Source: Gammaproteobacteria bacterium
Lineage (GTDB): Bacteria; Pseudomonadota; Gammaproteobacteria; GCA-001735895
Reading direction: 5' to 3'
DNA: 64,000 nt
NCBI GenBank assembly: GCA_022340305.1
Contig: JAJDOF010000111.1
Span: forward strand, 1 to 64,000
In this document: in pieces, positions 5,713 to 38,086 of the stretch
How the letters are laid out: each line of letters starts with the position of its first letter
Numbering within the stretch: position 1 is the first letter of the stretch
Position numbers and translations under genes: made by a program
Notes under the pieces: model-generated
Databases searched by the model: none
What the model saw: only the letters and a program-made list of their open reading frames with translations
What the model was told of the DNA's origin: nothing

Positions 5713-7944
5713 TTACTTTGAGGTGTGCGTAAACACGCCGTCCCAGTCGTCGCCGGGAGGTTCGTTACGATAGACGGTGACTCGATCGAGGTAAACCTGG
5801 TACAGATAACGATCTGGGTAATTGCGATTCAGATTGAAGAAGTCCAGCTCGGCTTTATCCCAGGACTGGGCCCGGAAACTCTTCAGTGCCTTGCGGTAGG
5901 CGCTCAGTTCTTCGGTTATGGATTTTTCAACATCGTTCCTGTGTCCAACCGGCTCAAAAATAGCGACGGGTTCATTTTTACCCTTGACGCGCACCAGGTC
6001 GAGTTCGCGAAACAGAAACTCGGGAATTTCCAACTTGGTTGACTCACTGACGATGATGTTGACACCGTAGTTTTTTGTTAATCCTTCGAGTCGTGCCCCC
6101 AGGTTGACCGCATCGCCGAGCACGGTGTATGCCATGCGAAATTCGGATCCCATGTTGCCAACATTCATGTTGCCGGTATTCAGGCCGATACCGATATTGA
6201 CAGTCGGCCAACCGCGTTGTTTAAAGTCCGCCTGCATAACCTTTAGTTCTTTTATCATATCCATTGCGGCATAGAGGGCATGGCGCGCATGCTCTGTGTC
6301 GGCAAGCGGCGCTCCCCAGAAGGCCATGATCGCGTCACCCATGTACTTGTCGATGGTACCGCGGTTCTTATGAATAACGCGTGTCATCGGCGTCAATAGC
6401 GCGTTCATCAACTGAGTAAGTTCTTTGGGATTCATGCCTTCGGAGATGGTGGTAAATCCGCGCACATCCGAGAACAGGACTGTCATTTCCCGGTTTTCGC
6501 CGTCCAGTGAAAACTCTTCCGGCGACTCCGACATTTCATCGACCAGTTCCGGTGGAATGTAGTGACCGAACAGGTTGGCGAGCTGACGCTTGCCCCTGGA
6601 TTCGATAAAGAATCCGTAAGTCATGTGCAGCATGAATATCAGCACGATCAACAGCATCGGGCTGGCCAACGGTAGTATTAGATTGTTATTCCATGCGGCA
6701 AAGGTGCCGGCCATGATCACTATCGAAAAACCCAGGGTTGAGGCTGCGGCGATCAATGGCGATACCAGGGGTAGCAACAATGCCATGCTGACGGCGACAA
6801 TTACTAGCAATACAAACTCGTATCCCACCGTCCAGGCGGGCTTGTGCTTGATGCGATTATCCAGAATTCCTGAAATTATGTTGGCATGCACCTCGACCCC
6901 GGGATAAATATTCTGTACCGGTGTGGAGCGTAGATCGAGTAGGCCCGGTGCCGAGGTGCCGATGAGGACAATCTTATCCTTCAATTGAGCGGGATCAGCG
7001 CTACCGTTGAGGACTTTATAGGCCGGCACATAAGGAAAGCTGCCCTGGCGGCCGCGGTATGGCACAAACGCCGCGCCATTTGCGTCCACGGGTATCTGGA
7101 AGCTTTGCAGATTGATGGCCTCCAGTGCATAGTACTCTTTGCCACCCTTGCTGCCCTGGGCTTCCACTGCCAACCCAATGCCTTTCGCGTCCAGGTACCC
7201 CTGTGTGGTCGCAAGTGCCAGTGAGGCAAATAAATAGCCCTCATAGGCCTGCACCAGCGGAACACGTCGAAAAACGCCATCGGCATCGACAAAAGGATTA
7301 TCGAAGTATCCACCGGACAGTGCCGAGGACTGTAAAATCTCAAGATTACCACCGAAACCTGCGGCCTCGTTGATCGGCAGCCGCTCACTCCACTGCACGT
7401 CCATCTTGGTCAGCGCCGGAGGTAGCATGCCAGTTACGCCACTTTCCCCTTCCTGCAATCTAGCCTTGAAGTAATACCCCATGACGACATTCCTGCCCAC
7501 CAGGCTCTTGGCAAAAATCTCGTCGTGCAGCAACGAGGGACGAATTTCCTCCAGCGCTTGCTGGTAGCCAGAGTTGTTTTTCAGCGTGGTGTTCGCCAGT
7601 TGCTCAAACTGCGCCAGTCCTGAACTTTCATCCTTTTCCGCAAATACGATATCAAAGCCGACTACTTTGACCTGATATCTGGTAAACAGGTTGTCAACTA
7701 TGGTCGCCAGCTTGTCGCGCCCCCAGGGCCAGCGACCGACTTCGGCTAACGAATTTTCATCGATGTCGACAATGACGACCCGATCATCGAGGGTATCAGG
7801 GCGAGTGAAATTGAGTCGAGTGTCATAAGTCCAGTTTTCAAGTTGCTTGAGAAACGGGTACTTATATACACCCGAGGTATCAATAAGAAGTATGAAAAGA
7901 ATCAGGGCGCTTAGAACTAGCCTGATAATGCGCTGAAGCTGCAT
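5713..7944 (-). CDS. CHASE2-domain class III adenylate cyclase
   Basis: A 743-residue membrane sensor/cyclase. One N-terminal transmembrane helix (about 6-22) precedes an extracytoplasmic CHASE2 domain (about 35-365) with the RVVIVDIDENSLAEVGRWPW signature. Three further membrane helices (about 372-445) lead to a class III cyclase domain (about 475-665). The metal-binding aspartates are D493 (FSDVRGF) and D537 (GDAIMAFWGAP). The base-selecting residues K533 and D611 are the pair typical of ATP rather than GTP cyclases, so cAMP is the expected product. The C-terminal tail (670-743) looks like a short helical repeat. It is the last gene of a four-gene operon, 44 bp after the FHA gene. Confidence 0.9.
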   Translation of the reverse strand: MQLQRIIRLVLSALILFILLIDTSGVYKYPFLKQLENWTYDTRLNFTRPDTLDDRVVIVDIDENSLAEVGRWPWGRDKLATIVDNLFTRYQVKVVGFDIVFAEKDESSGLAQFEQLANTTLKNNSGYQQALEEIRPSLLHDEIFAKSLVGRNVVMGYYFKARLQEGESGVTGMLPPALTKMDVQWSERLPINEAAGFGGNLEILQSSALSGGYFDNPFVDADGVFRRVPLVQAYEGYLFASLALATTQGYLDAKGIGLAVEAQGSKGGKEYYALEAINLQSFQIPVDANGAAFVPYRGRQGSFPYVPAYKVLNGSADPAQLKDKIVLIGTSAPGLLDLRSTPVQNIYPGVEVHANIISGILDNRIKHKPAWTVGYEFVLLVIVAVSMALLLPLVSPLIAAASTLGFSIVIMAGTFAAWNNNLILPLASPMLLIVLIFMLHMTYGFFIESRGKRQLANLFGHYIPPELVDEMSESPEEFSLDGENREMTVLFSDVRGFTTISEGMNPKELTQLMNALLTPMTRVIHKNRGTIDKYMGDAIMAFWGAPLADTEHARHALYAAMDMIKELKVMQADFKQRGWPTVNIGIGLNTGNMNVGNMGSEFRMAYTVLGDAVNLGARLEGLTKNYGVNIIVSESTKLEIPEFLFRELDLVRVKGKNEPVAIFEPVGHRNDVEKSITEELSAYRKALKSFRAQSWDKAELDFFNLNRNYPDRYLYQVYLDRVTVYRNEPPGDDWDGVFTHTSK

Positions 7945-7988
7945 GGAATGCTCCCGGGTTTAGGTCGGACGAGCAGTGGGAAAGGGTA

Positions 7989-8711
7989 TTACTTCAGGTA
8001 AAATTCCATTTTTACGCCAGCAACTTCGATGATATCGTGGCTTTTCAGCGCATGGGCATTGGATCCAATGGGTGAACCACCAACTTTGGCCACACTGTTG
8101 TTAGGACCGCCGTCAACGTGAATCAGAAAGAATCCCTGGGGTCGGCGGGTGATTGCGGCAACCTGTACTCCCGGTTGCCCAATGGTGGTTAACGCTTTGG
8201 TGAGAATCAATTCCTTGCCTGCATTTGCGCCGCTCAACAATTGCAGGCAGGCTTCGCGGTTTGCCATGGGTGATGCGGCCGTCGTAGCTGCCTCAGAGGC
8301 AATCGCGGCGGAAATCTTCTGTACCGACTTGTCGATTTCGCGACCACCGGCTTCTTCGGGCATACCCGCTTCGCCAGCACGAATAATCATGGTTTGCTCG
8401 AAATCCTGTTCGCCACTGCCACTGCTGTTTTGGTAGGCGATCTGGTATTTGCCAAGGGTGATATTGTCACCATTTTCAAGTGCGTGCTTCTTTACCAGCT
8501 TACCGTTGACATAAGTCCCGTTTGTGCTGCCCAGATCTTCCAGAAACGAATCTTCGAGTATGGTAATTACCTGGGCGTGCCTGCCACTGACAGACAGGTT
8601 ATCGATCTGAATATCGTTACCTGGCTTACGCCCAATGGTAGTAGTTTCGTTGACCAATTCAAACTCGGTTTTTTCGCCCGTGCTTGATGTCGTGATCAGT
8701 TTTGCGACCAT
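7989..8711 (-). CDS. Double FHA-domain phosphothreonine-binding adaptor
   Basis: A 240-residue soluble protein with two forkhead-associated domains. The first (about 5-95) is complete, with G27-R28, SGRHA at 42-46 and STNGT at 62-66. The second (about 153-240) is degenerate: its Gly-Arg and Ser-x-x-His positions are not conserved. A linker of about 55 residues contains EQT107MII, a Thr followed at +3 by Ile. FHA domains favour phosphothreonine with a specific +3 residue, so T107 is a possible phosphosite. It sits between a PP2C gene (47 bp upstream) and an adenylate cyclase gene (44 bp downstream), and probably links kinase activity to the cyclase. That link is inference. Confidence 0.88.
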   Translation of the reverse strand: MVAKLITTSSTGEKTEFELVNETTTIGRKPGNDIQIDNLSVSGRHAQVITILEDSFLEDLGSTNGTYVNGKLVKKHALENGDNITLGKYQIAYQNSSGSGEQDFEQTMIIRAGEAGMPEEAGGREIDKSVQKISAAIASEAATTAASPMANREACLQLLSGANAGKELILTKALTTIGQPGVQVAAITRRPQGFFLIHVDGGPNNSVAKVGGSPIGSNAHALKSHDIIEVAGVKMEFYLK

Positions 8712-8758
8712 GTTTTTATCCAGCCTCTTGATTTTGTTTCTACTGGGTGGGTAAACCG

Positions 8759-9586
8759 CTAATCATCAAACCAAGCGGCAAACTTTTTGAACCAGCCCTT
8801 CCTGCTCGAAAAATCTTCTTCTATTCGGCACAACATTACGGAAATATTATCCTTTCCACCATTCTGGTTTGCCTTTGTAATCAATTGCTTGGCAGCTACT
8901 TCTAGATTAGCACTAAATTGCTTAATAGTTAAGTATATATCTTCATCTTCAACTAAATCGGTTAATCCATCTGAACATAGCAAATATAGGTCATTTTTCA
9001 GGACTATATCTTCCTGGATGTCGGGCATCACCACGGGATCTATGCCCAAAGCGCGGGTTACCAGGTTCTTGTTCATCGATTTTCGGGCTTCTTCGGGGGT
9101 ATAAAATCCACGATCTATCAATTCCTGGAGCAGGGAATGATCCTTGGTGATCTGTTCGAATTTATCGGAACGCAGTCGATAACACCGCGAATCGCCGATG
9201 TGTGCCAGTGAGAAAGAATTGTTATAAAACTGCAGAACGACGATCGTGGTGCCCATTCCCTTGTGTTCCGGATTGGTCTCGGAAGCCTGGAATACCAGTT
9301 GGTTAGCTTCAACGACGGCGTCCTGAATGCAGATTGATTCCCTGGAGAATCCGCTCGCCTCATCGATTTCACCTTCAGTTATCTGCGGTAAGCTTTGCTG
9401 CAACTTATCGATTACCGTATCCACAGCCATACTGCTGGCAATCTCGCCACCACGGTGGCCGCCCATTCCATCGGCCAGCACGACTAGTCCCAGGGCGCTA
9501 TCGAATCCAATCGAATCCTCGTTCTTGGCGCGCACGATACCGGTATCGGTAAGCCCCATGATGGTGATCTTGTTCTGCAAATTCAT
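8759..9586 (-). CDS. PP2C-family Ser/Thr protein phosphatase (PrpC/Stp type)
   Basis: A 275-residue metal-dependent phosphatase, expected to reverse phosphorylation by the kinase encoded 14 bp upstream. All main PP2C motifs are present: R19-x-x-N22-E23-D24, D39-GMGG, HIGDSR at 129-134, SDG at 205-207 and GGKDN at 243-247. The metal-coordinating Asp residues are intact, so it should be active. There is no signal peptide or membrane helix, so it acts in the cytoplasm. The last 20 residues are rich in Trp, Phe and Lys, beyond the catalytic fold. It is the second gene of the operon. Confidence 0.93.
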   Translation of the reverse strand: MNLQNKITIMGLTDTGIVRAKNEDSIGFDSALGLVVLADGMGGHRGGEIASSMAVDTVIDKLQQSLPQITEGEIDEASGFSRESICIQDAVVEANQLVFQASETNPEHKGMGTTIVVLQFYNNSFSLAHIGDSRCYRLRSDKFEQITKDHSLLQELIDRGFYTPEEARKSMNKNLVTRALGIDPVVMPDIQEDIVLKNDLYLLCSDGLTDLVEDEDIYLTIKQFSANLEVAAKQLITKANQNGGKDNISVMLCRIEEDFSSRKGWFKKFAAWFDD

Positions 9587-9600
9587 AACACAGTCACGAC

Positions 9601-12228
9601 TCAGGTCTGCAGGAATGTTTTCAGGTCAGCGGCAAACTGGCTGCCAGTCTGATACCGTGCTTCGGCATCCTTGGCGAGTGCCCTGTTAATGATTTCGGCA
9701 ATGGCTTCAGGAATATCGGCACGATGAGTCCTGGGGTCGGCGGCTTCTTCGTTGGTAATCTTGAACATCAGGCTGGCCATGGACTCGGCCTTGAAGGGCA
9801 GGGAACCGCTCAACATCTGGTAAAGCATGACACCGAGTGAAAACAGGTCGGAACGCCCGTCCACTTTCTTGCCTGCGAGTTGTTCCGGGGACATATAGGA
9901 GGGGGTTCCCAGAACCATGCCGGTTTTGGTCTTGCTTGAGTCGGTTATGCGGGCAATGCCAAAGTCGGTAATCTTGACGATATCAGATTCGGGTTCATAC
10001 ATGATATTGGCCGGCTTGATGTCGCGGTGGACAACGTTTTGCTGATGCGCATAGTCGAGTCCTTCCGCGGAACGTGCGACGATGCTGATCACCGTGTGCA
10101 TCTCCATCAGGTTGTCCGGTTTGCAGTATCGCGCCAGATCATGACCCTTGAGAAACTCCATCGCGATGTAGGCGAGATCATGTTCTTCGCCGGCATCAAA
10201 GATGGTGACGATATTGGGGTGATTGAGTCGGCCCGCGGTTTCCGCCTCGCGAAAAAATCGCTCTTTGACTTCTTCGAGTTCGTCTTCTTCGAACTCCTGC
10301 GCCAAAGCCATGGTCTTGATCGCGACCACCCGGTTGATCTTGGGGTCCTTACCCAGGTAAACAATACCCATAGCCCCCTTGCCAAGTTCCTTTTCGACTT
10401 CGTAGCGGCCTAGCATGGGTTTCTCCATACCGCCACCGTCGAGCATCAGGGTGCCACCGGCGTGCCCGCCACTGCCACCGAGCATGACGGTTTCTTCCAT
10501 TTTCTGTGCACGGCTCATACGTGTGTTGATGTCACGAAACGCCTTGTCGTGTTTGGCCATGTACTGGTAAACCGACGTTGCCTTGTTGAACTGGCGTTTG
10601 CGCTCGAAGTCGAGCGCAAGATTGTACATCGCTTCCAGTACCTGTTCATCGACAGGGCTACATTTGCGAAATTTCTCGAAGGCCATGTCGAGTTGTCCCT
10701 GGGTCTGGAAGGCGATACCCAGCATACGATTACTTTCTGCCGACTCTTCGTCCGAGCGCGCCTTGCCACGCTCGGTGACGAGGAATCGTTTGGTTGTAAT
10801 CAGCAGGTAACCGACGACGAGTAAGGCTGCTGGTGTCATCAACTGTATCCACATCGTACTGCTGGTCATCAGCACGTAATGGGTGGCTACCAGTGTCAGT
10901 ACCAACATTACGGTAACCACAAATGCGACACCGGCCTTCAGCCGCGGCATGACCAACATCAGGTATAACATCACCAGCACGAAGGCGCCCAGCCGGGCCC
11001 AAAAGCCCCATTCGGGTTCGATAAAGAAGTCTTCGTTAAGAATGCTCGAAACCGAATGCGCCAGGGTAAGGACCGGCGCCATCGCGCTGTTTATCGGCGT
11101 TACCTGTGGCGTACCGACACCGGTCGCCGTGGGGCCGATCAGCACGATCTTATCCTTGTACTTTTCGATCGGGATATTGCCGATAAATACGTCATAGAAC
11201 GAATCAACCTGGAATGCAGGTTCCTGGGTGTCGGCATAAAAAAAGGTGTTCATTTGCAGTTGCGTATCGGTCTTGATGGTCAGCGAACCGAGTTCGACGC
11301 TTTCTGCGAGGTTGACCTTGATATCGTTGGCATCGAGATTCAGGCTTTTAGCTGCGATTTGTAACGACATGGATGGATAAAAACGATCGTAATGCTGCAG
11401 CACCAAAGGTTCCGAACGAACCCCGCCATCGATATCGGGCAGGGCATTCAGGTGGCCGATGGCCGACGCATAACGACCAATTTCATCGATAGGTGGCAGT
11501 GCATTGAGTGTGGGTATGGGGAATAGACCATTCGACTGGGCCGAGACTCGGTCCCGTATCTGATTGATCGAATTGCGCAGCACGTAATCGGGCAATTCTG
11601 CGTCCGGATTGCCGCGCGGCGTGCCCAGATAAAATACCATGGCGAGCACCACATTTTTCGCCTTGGCCATGCTTTCCGCGAGTTTGGCATCGGTATTCAA
11701 TGCCTGCTCAGCTTCGAACAGGCTTGCTTTCAGAGTCTCGATGTCCTGGCTGAGCCGCGTATTCACACTGGACTGCAAGTAGAACTCGAGTATTTCCTTA
11801 ACGGCCCGATTCTTGCCCTGAAACTCAAGCATCGCACCGAGGGTATCGATGTCGGCAGGAACATCATTAAAACTGGCATTTGAGAAAAATTCGATCAACT
11901 CGCGAACGTACAACATGCCCGGATCGATCTGTGGCTCGAGGAAGAACACGGTTTGGCCGATTACCTTGGCACCGCCGGCGCTTAACCGGTTTATCAGTTC
12001 AGCGTGCAGATCCCGTGGCCACGGCCAGCGCCCGATATTATTAATGCTTTGGTCGTCTATGGCGATGACGACAACTCGATCTGAGGCTTTACGGTCGGTC
12101 GACCTGACACCCCAGTCATAAAAACCCCGTTCCAGGCTCTGAAATGGAGCTGATCCCGATAAAACCACAATTGCGATGGTAATTAGTAACGCTGCGAACC
12201 AGTCGCTACTCCAAAATCGGGATTTCAT
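9601..12228 (-). CDS. CHASE2-domain Hanks-type Ser/Thr protein kinase
   Basis: An 875-residue receptor kinase. After one membrane helix (about 9-27) comes a CHASE2 sensor (about 35-400, RVVVIAIDDQSINNIGRWPW signature). Membrane helices follow at about 410-480, then a TPR-like helical linker (about 500-575). The C-terminal kinase domain is about 607-875. Catalytic residues are intact: G-loop G616-x-G618, K638, H734-R735-D736, D755-F756-G757 and SPE at 780-782, with activation-loop T767 and T769. A juxtamembrane patch has two Thr sites, EET580VML and GGT593LMLD, that look like FHA docking motifs. It is the first gene of the operon; the start has GGAGA upstream. The ligand sensed is unknown. Confidence 0.93.
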   Translation of the reverse strand: MKSRFWSSDWFAALLITIAIVVLSGSAPFQSLERGFYDWGVRSTDRKASDRVVVIAIDDQSINNIGRWPWPRDLHAELINRLSAGGAKVIGQTVFFLEPQIDPGMLYVRELIEFFSNASFNDVPADIDTLGAMLEFQGKNRAVKEILEFYLQSSVNTRLSQDIETLKASLFEAEQALNTDAKLAESMAKAKNVVLAMVFYLGTPRGNPDAELPDYVLRNSINQIRDRVSAQSNGLFPIPTLNALPPIDEIGRYASAIGHLNALPDIDGGVRSEPLVLQHYDRFYPSMSLQIAAKSLNLDANDIKVNLAESVELGSLTIKTDTQLQMNTFFYADTQEPAFQVDSFYDVFIGNIPIEKYKDKIVLIGPTATGVGTPQVTPINSAMAPVLTLAHSVSSILNEDFFIEPEWGFWARLGAFVLVMLYLMLVMPRLKAGVAFVVTVMLVLTLVATHYVLMTSSTMWIQLMTPAALLVVGYLLITTKRFLVTERGKARSDEESAESNRMLGIAFQTQGQLDMAFEKFRKCSPVDEQVLEAMYNLALDFERKRQFNKATSVYQYMAKHDKAFRDINTRMSRAQKMEETVMLGGSGGHAGGTLMLDGGGMEKPMLGRYEVEKELGKGAMGIVYLGKDPKINRVVAIKTMALAQEFEEDELEEVKERFFREAETAGRLNHPNIVTIFDAGEEHDLAYIAMEFLKGHDLARYCKPDNLMEMHTVISIVARSAEGLDYAHQQNVVHRDIKPANIMYEPESDIVKITDFGIARITDSSKTKTGMVLGTPSYMSPEQLAGKKVDGRSDLFSLGVMLYQMLSGSLPFKAESMASLMFKITNEEAADPRTHRADIPEAIAEIINRALAKDAEARYQTGSQFAADLKTFLQT

Positions 12229-12565
12229 ACCGTCTCCGTCGTTTCATTTATTATTAGCTGCCCACTTGATATATTGGTTACGGCAGAGTTTGCTAGTGGA
12301 CTATTTTGAATTCAATTCGTATATTATTCAATTATTTATGTGATTAACTTGAACTGATTAGCAAATTGCTGATCGTATGAGATCATTTAAATCACGATGC
12401 GATCAACTATAGGGTTGTATTGTCATTATTACCAGTATTTAGACCCATAAAATTAGCCCTCGGGACCAATTTGAAATGCAGGGTGATTGACCTAGAATAG
12501 GATCGCCCGGGAATAGTCCAGCAGGGTGTTGAGCCTGGATTGCCAGCGTAAAAAGGAACAGGTTT
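12229..12565. promoter_or_regulatory. AT-rich divergent intergenic region
   Basis: This 337 bp stretch separates the divergent kinase operon and the HD-GYP gene and must carry promoters for both. It is markedly AT-rich compared with its flanks (for example 12300-12420), with several TATA-like hexamers in both directions. I cannot fix a single promoter with confidence. No convincing CRP half-site pair or sigma-54 element is visible, and no ORF of note is present. Confidence 0.45.
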
Positions 12566-14173
12566 ATGTTAGAACTGTTAGACCGAATTGAGCGCTTAAA
12601 CGAGATTGGCATAGCACTTTCGGCGGAGACTAATGCCCCCAAGCTGCTCGAGCTGATTATGATGGGCGCGAAAACCCTGACGCTGGCAGACGGCGGTTCA
12701 CTTTATTTCTTAAAGGATGGCGAGCTGAGCTTCGAGATCATCTCTAACGACTCGCTTGATATTCAAATGGGTGGCACTTCCGGAAATGACATTACCTTCC
12801 CCCCGATTCCGTTGGTCAAGCACGACCAGGAAAATCACGCTAACGTTGTAACGCATTGTGTGCTCACCGGCGAGACGATCAATATTGCCGACGCCTATCA
12901 CGAAGATGGTTTCGACTTTACCGGCACTCGACAATTTGACCGCAAAACAGGCTATCGTACGCGTTCAATGTTGACGTTTCCGTTGAAAGATCATGAACAG
13001 GAAACCATCGGCGTACTGCAGTTGATAAACGCACGGGATGCAGATAGCGGCGAAGTGATTGAATTCAGTAAGGTCGACCAACAACTTGCCGAATCACTGG
13101 CCTCGCAGGCCGCAGTTGCGTTGACCCAACAACGCCTGGTCTCGGAGCTGAAAACCCTGTTTGAGTCTTTTATCCGCATGATTGCCTCGGCCATCGACGA
13201 TAAATCACCTTACACGGGTGGGCATTGCCGCCGTATTCCGGTACTGACAATGATGCTTGCCGATGCGGTGCATGCCACAAATGAGGGGCCGTTAAGACAT
13301 TTCGAGATCACTGAAAAAGATCGTTACGAATTGGAAACGGCAGCCTGGTTACATGACTGCGGTAAGGTAGTGACACCTGAATACGTAATGGACAAAGCGA
13401 CTAAACTGGAAACCATCTACGATCGAATCCACACACTTGAGGCCCGTTTCGAAGTCCTGCGACGTGATGCCGAGATCGAGTATCTGCAAGGCTGTCTGCG
13501 GGCCACCGATGCGGCGCAATCGGTGGCTGAGCTGGAGCAGAAATATCAGCAAACCTGTCAGCAGCTGGCCGTAGACTTCGAATTTTTGCGCAACGCCAAT
13601 ATTGGTGGCGAATTCATGAGTGAAGCGGACATCGCCCGCGTGCATCAACTCGCACAGGTGCATTGGACTGATACCAATGGGGTACAACGCTCTTTATTAT
13701 CTGACGATGAAGCCATGAATCTTTCGATTGAACGCGGAACTTTGAATGACACCGAGCGTGAAGTCATAAACAACCACATCGTAGCGACGATCAAAATGCT
13801 TGAATCGCTGCCTTTCCCCAAAAACCTGCAGAATGTTCCCGAGTATGCCGGTGGCCATCATGAGAAAATGGATGGAACCGGTTATCCGAAAGGATTAAAG
13901 CGTGATGAGATGTCGGTACAGGCCCGCATTATGGCAATCGCCGATATCTTTGAAGCGCTCACCGCAAGTGATCGGCCTTACAAGAAGGGTAAAAAGTTGT
14001 CGGAATGCCTGAAAATCATGGAATTTATGAAGCAGGAAAATCACATCGATCCCGATATCTTTGATATTTTTATCAGGCAACGTGTTTACCAGGACTATGC
14101 CGATGAATTTCTTGATCCGCAGCAGATTGATAAAATTGAAGAAGCGCAGACTCCAAGATTTTCCATCCGCTGA
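12566..14173 (+). CDS. GAF + HD-GYP domain cyclic-di-GMP phosphodiesterase
   Basis: A 535-residue cytoplasmic protein with an N-terminal GAF domain (about 5-190) and an HD-GYP domain (about 195-515). The metal-binding HD pair is H263-D264 (WLHDCGKV), and the signature HHEKMDGTGYPKG lies at 431-443, so catalytic residues are intact. HD-GYP enzymes hydrolyse c-di-GMP to pGpG or GMP. An insertion of about 110 residues with predicted helix (about 280-390) separates the HD and GYP parts, as in several GAF/HD-GYP proteins. AGGA precedes the ATG. It is divergent from the kinase/cyclase operon, which suggests joint control. Confidence 0.92.
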   Translation: MLELLDRIERLNEIGIALSAETNAPKLLELIMMGAKTLTLADGGSLYFLKDGELSFEIISNDSLDIQMGGTSGNDITFPPIPLVKHDQENHANVVTHCVLTGETINIADAYHEDGFDFTGTRQFDRKTGYRTRSMLTFPLKDHEQETIGVLQLINARDADSGEVIEFSKVDQQLAESLASQAAVALTQQRLVSELKTLFESFIRMIASAIDDKSPYTGGHCRRIPVLTMMLADAVHATNEGPLRHFEITEKDRYELETAAWLHDCGKVVTPEYVMDKATKLETIYDRIHTLEARFEVLRRDAEIEYLQGCLRATDAAQSVAELEQKYQQTCQQLAVDFEFLRNANIGGEFMSEADIARVHQLAQVHWTDTNGVQRSLLSDDEAMNLSIERGTLNDTEREVINNHIVATIKMLESLPFPKNLQNVPEYAGGHHEKMDGTGYPKGLKRDEMSVQARIMAIADIFEALTASDRPYKKGKKLSECLKIMEFMKQENHIDPDIFDIFIRQRVYQDYADEFLDPQQIDKIEEAQTPRFSIR

Positions 14174-14183
14174 CGGATGAATA

Positions 14184-15239
14184 TCAGGATGTCTCGAGAT
14201 CGTCAGGATCTGCGGTGTCGACGCCATCTCTAAGCACGAAAGACGCAATATCCCTTTCGTTCAATAAGAATGACGCGGCAGAACTACGTCGTCCGGTATC
14301 GCAATAAATGACGTATTTCTTCTGCGGGTCGAGTGAATTGGCTTTCATGCGCAGAAATATTAGCGGGATGTTGATGCTACCTTTGACGAACTTGGCTTTG
14401 TGCTCCGCCGGCAAGCGCACGTCAAGCCAGATCGCGCCGTCGTCAACCAGTTTCCTGCCCTCGTCGTAGTCGACCCAGTTAAGCAGGGGTTCGTTAAGCA
14501 GTGAATTGAAATCGTCCTTGTTCAAACGCATCAAATGACCTTCGGACAGCATCGTTATGGTGGCATTGCGCTTACTATCCGAAATCAGGGCCTCTTCGCC
14601 GAAGCTGTCACCGACCGACAGGGTGGCGAGCTTTACTCCATTAGGATTGGCCGGCGTAGAGCGCGTAACCAGGCATCGTCCTTCCTTGATGATGTAAAAA
14701 TAATCGCCATCGGCGTCCTGCTCGATTACTTTATCACCCGCTTTATAACTCACTGATTCCATGCGCATGAACATTGCCTGAATGTTGGCGGGTGGAATTC
14801 GGTGGAAGGCGCGAGTCTGCAGGATACGGGTCATCCAGTCGGTTTCGTCGTCTTCCTCATCCAGTCCCTCAACCGTATAACTGCCGGTCTGGTCCCAGGT
14901 CAGCATGATGTCAAGCATGTCGCTGTTAATCCGGGTGATCACTGAAGCTATCTTGGCGCGTGCCGATATTCGACGGGGAAATGCGTGCGCAATCGGTTCC
15001 AGACTTTCCGCAGAACCAGCCTTGATAGTCTTGACGACCTTTTTATCGTCTATCAGTTCTAAGACACCGCTAAGCAGGTAAGTGTGAGTTTTATCTGCAT
15101 CGCCCTTTTTGAACACATAGTGCCCGGCCGGTACCCCAGTGGCAGTAATTTTCTTTATTAAATCCTGGGCATTTCCAGGATGCAGGGAATTGATCGGTGA
15201 AAAGGATCTTATTTGTTTTGGATCAATCTCAAGGGCCAT
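14184..15239 (-). CDS. Cyclic-nucleotide-binding domains + rhodanese protein
   Basis: A 351-residue soluble protein. The N-terminal part (about 15-120) looks like a degenerate cNMP-binding fold. A second domain (about 140-250) has a good phosphate-binding cassette, FGEEALISDSKRNAT (E215/E216 and R224), which suggests real cAMP or cGMP binding. A rhodanese domain (about 258-340) follows, with an active-site Cys313 in the loop CDTGRR. It has no helix-turn-helix, so it is not a CRP-type regulator. It lies near an adenylate cyclase gene and is convergent with the HD-GYP gene. A cAMP-controlled sulfur-transfer or scaffold role is inference. Confidence 0.88.
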   Translation of the reverse strand: MALEIDPKQIRSFSPINSLHPGNAQDLIKKITATGVPAGHYVFKKGDADKTHTYLLSGVLELIDDKKVVKTIKAGSAESLEPIAHAFPRRISARAKIASVITRINSDMLDIMLTWDQTGSYTVEGLDEEDDETDWMTRILQTRAFHRIPPANIQAMFMRMESVSYKAGDKVIEQDADGDYFYIIKEGRCLVTRSTPANPNGVKLATLSVGDSFGEEALISDSKRNATITMLSEGHLMRLNKDDFNSLLNEPLLNWVDYDEGRKLVDDGAIWLDVRLPAEHKAKFVKGSINIPLIFLRMKANSLDPQKKYVIYCDTGRRSSAASFLLNERDIASFVLRDGVDTADPDDLETS

Positions 15240-36376: not shown

Positions 36377-38086
36377 TTAGTCCTTGGTAACCCGGTTTGC
36401 TTCTTCAAGACTGATCAGTCCCTGCATGATCTTCTTTAACGCAGAGCGACGCAGATCGTCTACCCCTTCTTTACGCGCCTGATCGGCAAGGTCCAGCGAA
36501 TTGGCGCCACCCATGATCAGGCGTCCCATCTCTTCCGAAATTGTCATGACCTGATAGATCCCGACCCGGCCCTTGTAGCCGCCGACGCACTTGTCACAAC
36601 CCACCGCCCTGTAGATCTTGAAGTTTTCCTGCCCCAGGTCCTCGCGGGTAAATCCTTCACCCAGTAAGACATCTTCGGGCAGGTCATCCATGGTTTTGCA
36701 CTCGCCACAAAGACGCCGGCCGAGACGTTGAGCGATGATCAAGGTTACCGAGGTGGCGATATTGAAAGCCGGCACACCCATGTTCATCAGGCGCGTCAGG
36801 GTTTGTGGCGCATCGTTGGTGTGTAGCGTGGACAAAACCAGGTGGCCGGTTTGTGCCGCCTTGATTGCGATACTGGCGGTTTCGAGATCACGAATCTCAC
36901 CCACCATAATGACGTCGGGATCCTGTCGCAGGAAGGCCTTCAGAGCCTCCGCAAAAGTGAGTCCGACCTTATCGTTGACGTTGACCTGGTTAATCCCTTC
37001 TAGGTTTATTTCCGCGGGATCCTCGGCAGTTGAAATGTTAGTTTCCGGGATGTTCAAAATATTAAGGCCGGTGTATAGCGATACTGTCTTACCGCTACCC
37101 GTTGGCCCGGTAACCAGGATCATGCCGTAGGGATTCGCCAGGGCCTTCATGTACAGTTCTTTCTGCTCTGGCTCATAGCCCAGCGCGTCGATACCCAGTT
37201 TGGCGCTTGACGGATCAAGAATACGCAGCACTACCTTTTCACCGAACAGGGTCGGGCAGGTATTGACACGAAAATCGATGGCGCGTTTCTTCGACAGCTT
37301 GAGTTTGATGCGGCCGTCCTGGGGAACACGACGTTCGGATATGTCCATGCGTGACATGACCTTGACGCGCGCGGTCAGTTTGGCGGCGATCGATATCGGC
37401 GGCGACGCGACTTCGGCGAGTATGCCGTCCACCCGGTAGCGCACGCGGTAACGTTTTTCATAAGGCTCGAAGTGAATATCCGATGCGCCCTTGTTGATTG
37501 CATCGAGCAGAATCTTGTTGACGTATTTGACGACCGGCGCATCTTCGGCATCGGCTGCTGTTGGCCCGGCCTGTTCTTCTTCGTCGCCGCCGATCTCGAG
37601 ATCTTCGAGATCGTCGTCGAGCATGTCGTCCATGCCGGTATCCATGGCGGCTGAAGCTTTCTCGATAAATTCGGCCAGCTGATCTTCCTGCACCAGAATT
37701 GCTTCAGTCGACAGGCCGGTGGCGAATTTGAATTCGTCGAGCGCCTGGGTGTTGGTTGGACTCGAAATCGCGATGAATAGCTTGGTACCACGCTTGAACA
37801 GGGGTATCGCGTTGAGTTTGGCGATCAATTTTTCCGGCACTAGCGCAAAGGCCGCCAATTCGGTATCCATAACCGTGAGATCGAATACCGGCAAGCCGAA
37901 TTCCTGCGACGAGAACATCGCGATGATCTTGGAAGGAACGATATTGTTTTTAACCAGGTAACTGGTCAGCGGAATCCGTTCCTTGTTCGCGCTTTCGACT
38001 GCTTTCACTGCAGTAGCCTCATCCATGAGATTATCTATCACAAGCTTACGGGCTATTCCCGTTAGATTCATATTGGTAGCAGCCAT
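36377..38086 (-). CDS. pilB: Type IV pilus assembly ATPase PilB
   Basis: A 569-residue hexameric ATPase that drives pilus extension. The N-terminal GspE-type domain covers about 1-150, and an acidic linker (DDMLDDDLEDLEIGGDEEEQ) lies near 155-175. The core has Walker A GPTGSGKTVSLYTG, Asp box, Walker B VIMVGEIRD and His box. A tetracysteine zinc motif is present (CGEC and CDKC). Length matches P. aeruginosa PilB (566 aa). It is the first gene of the pilBCD operon. The usual adjacent pilA is about 6-7 kb away, beyond the accessory block. Confidence 0.96.
   Translation of the reverse strand: MAATNMNLTGIARKLVIDNLMDEATAVKAVESANKERIPLTSYLVKNNIVPSKIIAMFSSQEFGLPVFDLTVMDTELAAFALVPEKLIAKLNAIPLFKRGTKLFIAISSPTNTQALDEFKFATGLSTEAILVQEDQLAEFIEKASAAMDTGMDDMLDDDLEDLEIGGDEEEQAGPTAADAEDAPVVKYVNKILLDAINKGASDIHFEPYEKRYRVRYRVDGILAEVASPPISIAAKLTARVKVMSRMDISERRVPQDGRIKLKLSKKRAIDFRVNTCPTLFGEKVVLRILDPSSAKLGIDALGYEPEQKELYMKALANPYGMILVTGPTGSGKTVSLYTGLNILNIPETNISTAEDPAEINLEGINQVNVNDKVGLTFAEALKAFLRQDPDVIMVGEIRDLETASIAIKAAQTGHLVLSTLHTNDAPQTLTRLMNMGVPAFNIATSVTLIIAQRLGRRLCGECKTMDDLPEDVLLGEGFTREDLGQENFKIYRAVGCDKCVGGYKGRVGIYQVMTISEEMGRLIMGGANSLDLADQARKEGVDDLRRSALKKIMQGLISLEEANRVTKD

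Follow-up and report, generated by a model that had tools for sequence, protein, structure and literature searches.

A CHASE2 kinase–PP2C–double-FHA gene unit with an associated CHASE2 adenylate cyclase: a probable membrane-controlled phospho-switch in Gammaproteobacteria

The operon and its flanking genes

Four genes are arranged on the minus strand of the window (the whole stretch of 64,000 nucleotides that was analysed) in the order Ser/Thr kinase (KIN), PP2C phosphatase, FHA protein, and adenylate cyclase (AC). The gaps KIN/PP2C, PP2C/FHA, and FHA/AC are 14, 47, and 44 bp, respectively. All four ORFs were found where the original prediction had located them, and their coordinates and Pfam matches agree with the domains and gaps which it gave. 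The Pfam E-values are 9.5e-51 (CHASE2) and 3.7e-58 (Pkinase) for KIN, 1.6e-14 for PP2C, 2.9e-21 for FHA, and 6.2e-60 (CHASE2) and 1.7e-21 (Guanylate_cyc) for AC. The catalytic residues of the operon enzymes are intact and are also kept across orthologues. Absent from the prediction were the second FHA fold, the linker phospho-motif, the TPR-like region of KIN, and the conserved flanking genes for a cNMP-binding/rhodanese and a GAF/HD-GYP protein. The host assembly (4.35 Mb, 169 contigs) is 86% complete. Relatives of the window are mainly metagenome-assembled Gammaproteobacteria; the Olavius algarvensis Gamma 3 endosymbiont is in the same set.

KIN (9601..12228, minus strand, 875 aa) combines a CHASE2 domain (10969-12177), transmembrane helices with a TPR-like helical region (about 10483-10761), and a Ser/Thr kinase domain (9649-10404). 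The VAIK lysine K638, the HRD and DFG aspartates D736 and D755, and the αC glutamate E661 are kept in 110 of 110 orthologues. The curated model for PASTA-type Stk1/PknB kinases is matched with 308 bits, below its cut-off of 450, and CHASE2 takes the place of the PASTA ectodomain. In the AlphaFold model (pLDDT 85.8), juxtamembrane residues 581-601 are disordered. We scanned for conserved threonines which lie outside folded domains and are followed at +3 by an aliphatic residue, a common preference of FHA domains. Two threonines of KIN fit this pT-x-x-aliphatic pattern. Thr580 (EETVML, codon at 10489..10491, minus strand), which borders the disordered segment, is a candidate autophosphorylation and FHA docking site (Thr conservation 0.91, aliphatic +3 in 0.84 of the orthologues). 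Thr593 (GGTLML, codon at 10450..10452, minus strand), just N-terminal to the kinase domain, is a second candidate (0.82 and 0.95, respectively). Outside folded domains, no such conserved threonine was found in AC or in the cNMP-binding protein. The host genome codes for a second CHASE2-kinase of 841 aa (L003:1456-3981, contig C111) with a similar TPR-like region and the juxtamembrane motif ANTVVLAG, which might be another kinase for the FHA protein.

The phosphatase (8759..9586, minus strand, 275 aa) is a PP2C-type Ser/Thr phosphatase of the Stp1/IreP family (NCBIfam NF033484; 249 bits, above the cut-off of 230). Its metal-binding Asp residues are kept in 149-150 of 150 orthologues.

The FHA protein (7989..8711, minus strand, 240 aa) is a predicted double-FHA phospho-reader. 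FHA1 (8451-8642) is canonical, with the pThr-binding residues R28, S42, H45, N64, and N69 present in 154/154 orthologues. The predicted model has a second beta-sandwich at residues 154-239 (7995-8252) behind a disordered linker of low confidence (residues 99-149). We call this C-terminal half a second FHA-like fold because of the structure model and the strand pattern; it is devoid of pThr-binding residues, and conserved positions are present despite this. In the fold search, matches span about 90-100 columns, with GarA and OdhI as the best ones, and they are no separate proof of the second domain. GarA and OdhI are the nearest PDB structures both by sequence and by fold; the curated OdhI family model is matched with 69 bits, below its cut-off of 200. 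Among close relatives, none of the four proteins is as well conserved as the FHA protein, at 93-97% identity; the kinase has 77-88% and the cyclase 79-87%.

The linker of the FHA protein is hypervariable except for one fixed motif, [DE]-F-E-[KQ]-T-[MV]-[IV]-I. It reads DFEQTMIIR in the window, where Thr107 (codon at 8391..8393, minus strand) is the predicted phospho-acceptor and putative ligand of the protein's own FHA1. The motif DFE[KQ]TMII occurs in 64 of 70 diverse, non-redundant linkers, compared to 0.05 expected from shuffles. Thr107 is aligned in 151 of 154 orthologues, within a linker of low pLDDT. By analogy, this motif may be the counterpart of the OdhI/GarA ETTS site. Other proteins carrying the motif were considered as further FHA ligands; this was rejected, as the DNA pattern for F-E-[KQ]-T-M-[IVM] has a single occurrence in the host genome, inside the FHA gene itself.

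AC (5713..7944, minus strand, 743 aa) has a CHASE2 domain (6787-7893) and a class III cyclase domain (5971-6492). The metal, transition-state, and adenine-selecting residues (D493, D537, K533, T607, N614, R618) are each present in 99/99 orthologues. With its Lys/Thr adenine pair, AC is predicted to be a class III adenylate cyclase; the nearest solved relatives include CyaB (3r5g).

For the CHASE2 domains of KIN and AC, sequence identity is 25% in the window, and its median within loci is 26%. Across lineages, identity is 41% between kinases and 46% between cyclases. In a tree, the kinase and cyclase domains form two clades with 100/100 support. Judged by these comparisons, the two domains are old, separate sensors; the sequences give no ground for assuming one ligand. 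The original prediction, that one signal is read twice by the same CHASE2 type, is not supported by these data; the idea of a shared sensor was rejected on identity and tree.

A GAF/HD-GYP protein, a predicted c-di-GMP phosphodiesterase, is encoded divergently from KIN (12566..14173, plus strand). The intergenic region between the two genes (12229..12565) is a likely promoter region, judged from gene layout; a promoter/terminator scan was at chance level, no better than shuffles. The operon-associated gene at 14184..15239 (minus strand) codes for a protein with two cNMP-binding (CNB) domains and a rhodanese domain, a predicted cAMP effector. In the phosphate-binding cassette of the second CNB, Glu is kept in 54/55 and Arg in 55/55 sequences, and the rhodanese Cys in 55/55; the cassette Glu/Arg of the first CNB are not conserved among the 55 sequences. 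The host genome has 22 CNB matches and, therefore, other possible readers of cAMP.

Conservation, losses, and wider distribution

We examined 20 same-family loci. The order kinase-PP2C-FHA-cyclase is held in 15/15 loci which are complete and carry the kinase; two of the others are cut by contig ends, and in three (L048, L049, L050) the kinase is lost or truncated. This bears out the four-gene operon of the original prediction as a real unit and shows that it is conserved. We do not consider the operon to be due to chance, because the order is held in all 15 of these loci and because the kinase-PP2C-FHA triad recurs in 29 of 35 families (see below). One of the 15 loci, from the Olavius algarvensis Gamma 3 endosymbiont (L041:8995-12203), has a frameshift which splits the kinase into two overlapping ORFs, the cause being gene decay or an error in sequencing. 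The cNMP-binding/rhodanese gene is present in most same-family loci, upstream of KIN. The GAF/HD-GYP gene is associated but dispensable, being missing or degenerate in L037, L042, and L048-L051. In two of these (L042, L051), the gene immediately preceding the kinase, in the same orientation, is the cNMP-binding one.

The three loci with kinase loss belong to the same genus as the host. PP2C, FHA, and AC remain, and AC is intact in all three; thus, retention of AC needs no operon kinase. Locus L048 is devoid of kinase, cNMP-binding gene, and HD-GYP gene. In this genome, which is 99% complete, no CHASE2 kinase was found, the sole CHASE2 match being the cyclase. In its FHA protein, the Thr107 motif is gone and the FHA1 binding residues are retained. 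This co-loss is suggestive only, because the association between kinase and motif is weak outside the family (motif in 47 of 50 cases with and in 17 of 20 without a kinase). In L171/L172, the kinase is present and the linker motif is changed. L049 has a kinase remnant of 172 aa and has kept the linker motif. In L050 (10380-11330), only an N-terminal trace of the kinase and fragments of the HD-GYP gene are left, next to intact genes for cyclase, FHA, and PP2C; the linker motif is also intact, and the genome codes for another CHASE2 protein, which at 843 aa matches the second CHASE2 kinase in size.

Full-length relatives of the FHA protein are spread over many gammaproteobacterial families (class as defined by GTDB), from which 60 FHA loci representing 35 families were fetched. 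The triad was found in 45/60 loci and 29/35 families and is thus the core beyond the host's own family. A CHASE2-cyclase is located within 10 kb in 22 of the 60 loci (13 families) and is absent from this range in the other 38. The chance expectation for such a nearby cyclase is ~1%, a rough estimate based on ~1.5 CHASE2 genes per 3-Mb genome which ignores shared ancestry. The predicted kinase/phosphatase/phospho-reader triad is upheld, and a cyclase accompanies it more often than chance would give.

The position of the cyclase varies. It is co-directional and adjacent in L141, and convergent and adjacent in, for example, L143, L145, L150, L151, L153, L156, L157, L161, and L173. In 12 loci it is under 1 kb away without the FabI/SLT context. 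In several lineages it is 2-8 kb off, with genes for a BarA-like hybrid histidine kinase or PdxJ-like or CysM-like proteins intervening; in L133, L136, L144, and L172, FHA and cyclase are separated by BarA-like, response-regulator, PdxJ-like, and CysM-like genes. As the cyclase is absent within 10 kb in 38/60 loci, convergent in many others, and intact without an operon kinase, it is not obligatorily coupled to the triad. The kinase is missing from 15/60 loci, most of which retain FHA, PP2C, and the linker motif; the kinase may therefore be encoded away from the locus, or other inputs may feed the switch. In L213, L167, L160, L165, and L169, the triad kinase has no recognisable CHASE2, so the input domain varies with kinase, PP2C, and FHA being constant.

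Larger clusters were found in Nitrosomonadales/Gallionellaceae-type (beta-type) loci. In L090, L216, and L217, AC directly follows FHA on one strand and is itself followed by genes for an MBL-fold protein (matching class-II cAMP phosphodiesterase), the cNMP-binding/rhodanese protein, which is thus downstream of AC, a GAF-MshEN-T2SSE ATPase, and the GAF/HD-GYP protein. The co-directional clusters extend over L090:9798-18649 and L216:6034-18227, and a type IV pilin gene lies behind the cluster of L090. In L221, ATPase and HD-GYP follow FHA, with no cyclase. Among cultured organisms, Methylohalomonas lacus has the triad and a convergent AC, and Methylovorus sp. MM2 has the triad and HD-GYP, without an AC in the stretch covered. 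An orthologue of the GAF-MshEN-T2SSE ATPase was not found in the host genome. The best match there is an ordinary pilus-type T2SSE ATPase (PilB-like), which is encoded in the window itself (36689-37615) and does not match the GAF portion of the beta-type enzyme. The triad is not confined to this class: loci L208-L211, from a different class of the phylum, carry it with linker motif DMDKTMII.

The genome sets and the named contigs overlap in part (L050 and L054, for example, denote one contig), and counts are therefore stated per collection and not summed. Three metagenome-assembled genomes (L089, L096, L103) are titled Klebsiella pneumoniae; their module groups with uncultured Gammaproteobacteria, and these names look wrong.

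A probable phospho-switch and alternative readings

We consider it likely (probability about 0.6) that the operon codes for a membrane-controlled Ser/Thr phospho-switch of the PknG-GarA/OdhI kind, with an associated cAMP arm. The switch itself, with a CHASE2 receptor kinase, is predicted with good sequence support. By homology, KIN would sense through its own CHASE2 domain and relay the signal via the transmembrane and TPR-like region. Active KIN would autophosphorylate Thr580/Thr593, which would recruit FHA1 of the double-FHA protein, and would then phosphorylate Thr107 in the linker. Phosphorylated Thr107 would bind FHA1, either within its own molecule or in a neighbouring one, so that FHA2 and the linker become hidden from, or exposed for, a target. 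The Stp1-type PP2C would reset the switch. AC, with its different CHASE2 input, would make cAMP, the cNMP-binding/rhodanese protein would be a partial reader of it, and the HD-GYP protein would lower c-di-GMP. The switch may tune this set of second-messenger proteins and also, in clusters of the beta type, the GAF-MshEN pilus-type ATPase. Mutual influence of switch and cAMP arm is something we infer from gene neighbourhood only; the recurrence of this neighbourhood may likewise point to coupling of the switch to cAMP and c-di-GMP.

More tentatively, the gene set may be a widespread proteobacterial cassette, compact in the window, in which the double-FHA switch jointly governs cAMP synthesis, degradation, and sensing together with c-di-GMP hydrolysis, and which has the GAF-MshEN ATPase as output in some lineages. 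We regard this wider reading as possible rather than probable. Somewhat less likely, in our view, is a switch complete in the triad alone, which like OdhI and GarA would act on a target in metabolism or elsewhere in the cytosol, with the cyclase a mere neighbour by ancestral synteny. The closeness of the FHA protein to GarA/OdhI would fit this, as would the many triads without AC and the lineages with AC 2-8 kb off behind BarA-like, PdxJ-like, and CysM-like genes. However, AC is adjacent in varied contexts and orientations, including the 12 loci at under 1 kb without FabI/SLT context, and in beta-type clusters it is accompanied by other cAMP and c-di-GMP genes.

In the model that follows from the original prediction, both CHASE2 domains would sense a single extracellular ligand, and the FHA protein would physically bridge the kinase to a phosphorylated cyclase. 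Both receptors do carry CHASE2, and the operon is common to the family, but three points speak against it: the two domains are 25% identical and fall in separate clades, AC is retained without an operon kinase, and most of the distant loci with a triad have no AC within 10 kb. Conserved FHA-ligand-like threonines are located in the KIN juxtamembrane region and in the FHA linker, and none in AC outside folded domains, which disfavours the bridge. We thus consider this model improbable. Much less probable still is the threonine-phosphorylation pathway of type VI secretion (PpkA/PppA/Fha): the three protein types match (PMC5995506), but VipB is missing from the host genome (assembly about 86% complete), the FHA protein scores 46 bits against the TagH model (cut-off 120), and no T6SS gene was noticed among the annotated neighbours. 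The missing VipB and the TagH score led us to discard this reading. An anti-phage kinase or Pycsar-like defence module is the least credible of all. Kinase and cyclase domains match PADLOC models, but these matches are limited to general catalytic domains, for which reason the candidate was rejected; there is no Pycsar effector, and the operon is inherited beside housekeeping genes in conserved synteny.

The interest of the gene set lies in the combination. Bacterial studies mostly treat Hanks-type phosphorylation, cAMP, and c-di-GMP separately; here, one conserved cluster has genes for all three across many gammaproteobacterial families (in the GTDB sense), and the triad is also found in another class.

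Comparison with known systems

The original prediction knew of no characterised system of this exact make-up, and we likewise found no description of the kinase-PP2C-FHA-cyclase set in the open-access subset of the literature; that on the Olavius symbiont, in the same subset, held nothing relevant to the gene set. In T6SS threonine phosphorylation, kinase, PP2C phosphatase, and FHA protein are encoded in one cluster (PMC5995506). PpkA/PppA/Fha differ by another FHA architecture and by having neither CHASE2 nor cyclase, and no T6SS was found here. The Sinorhizobium meliloti proteins CyaD1, CyaD2, and CyaK are CHASE2-class III cyclase receptors which make cAMP (PMC13001267), the same receptor type as AC. 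They act via NsrA and the CRP-type regulator Clr; in the passages considered, a kinase-phosphatase-FHA unit is not described.

In Bdellovibrio DgcB, the FHA domain, which controls a second-messenger enzyme, has the protein's own phospho-tail NSDNLEK(pT)SIVASDT as its solved ligand (PMC6733907). LEK(pT)SIV is close to FEKTMII of the FHA linker; in DgcB, however, FHA and diguanylate cyclase are joined in one protein, and the messenger is c-di-GMP.

The closest likeness is to PknG-GarA/OdhI of actinobacteria. PknG, a TPR-containing kinase, phosphorylates the ETTS site of OdhI/GarA; autophosphorylation beside its kinase domain recruits the FHA substrate, and the TPR domain is needed in vivo (PMC8546545). 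Both systems have an FHA protein and a Ser/Thr kinase with a TPR domain or, here, a TPR-like region; the threonine phosphorylated outside the FHA fold in GarA/OdhI may have its counterpart in Thr107. In the system described here, in contrast, KIN is a membrane receptor with CHASE2, and the threonine lies in the linker after FHA1, on the opposite side of the FHA domain from that in GarA/OdhI. The system described here also has a second FHA-like fold, a PP2C of its own, and genes for second messengers.
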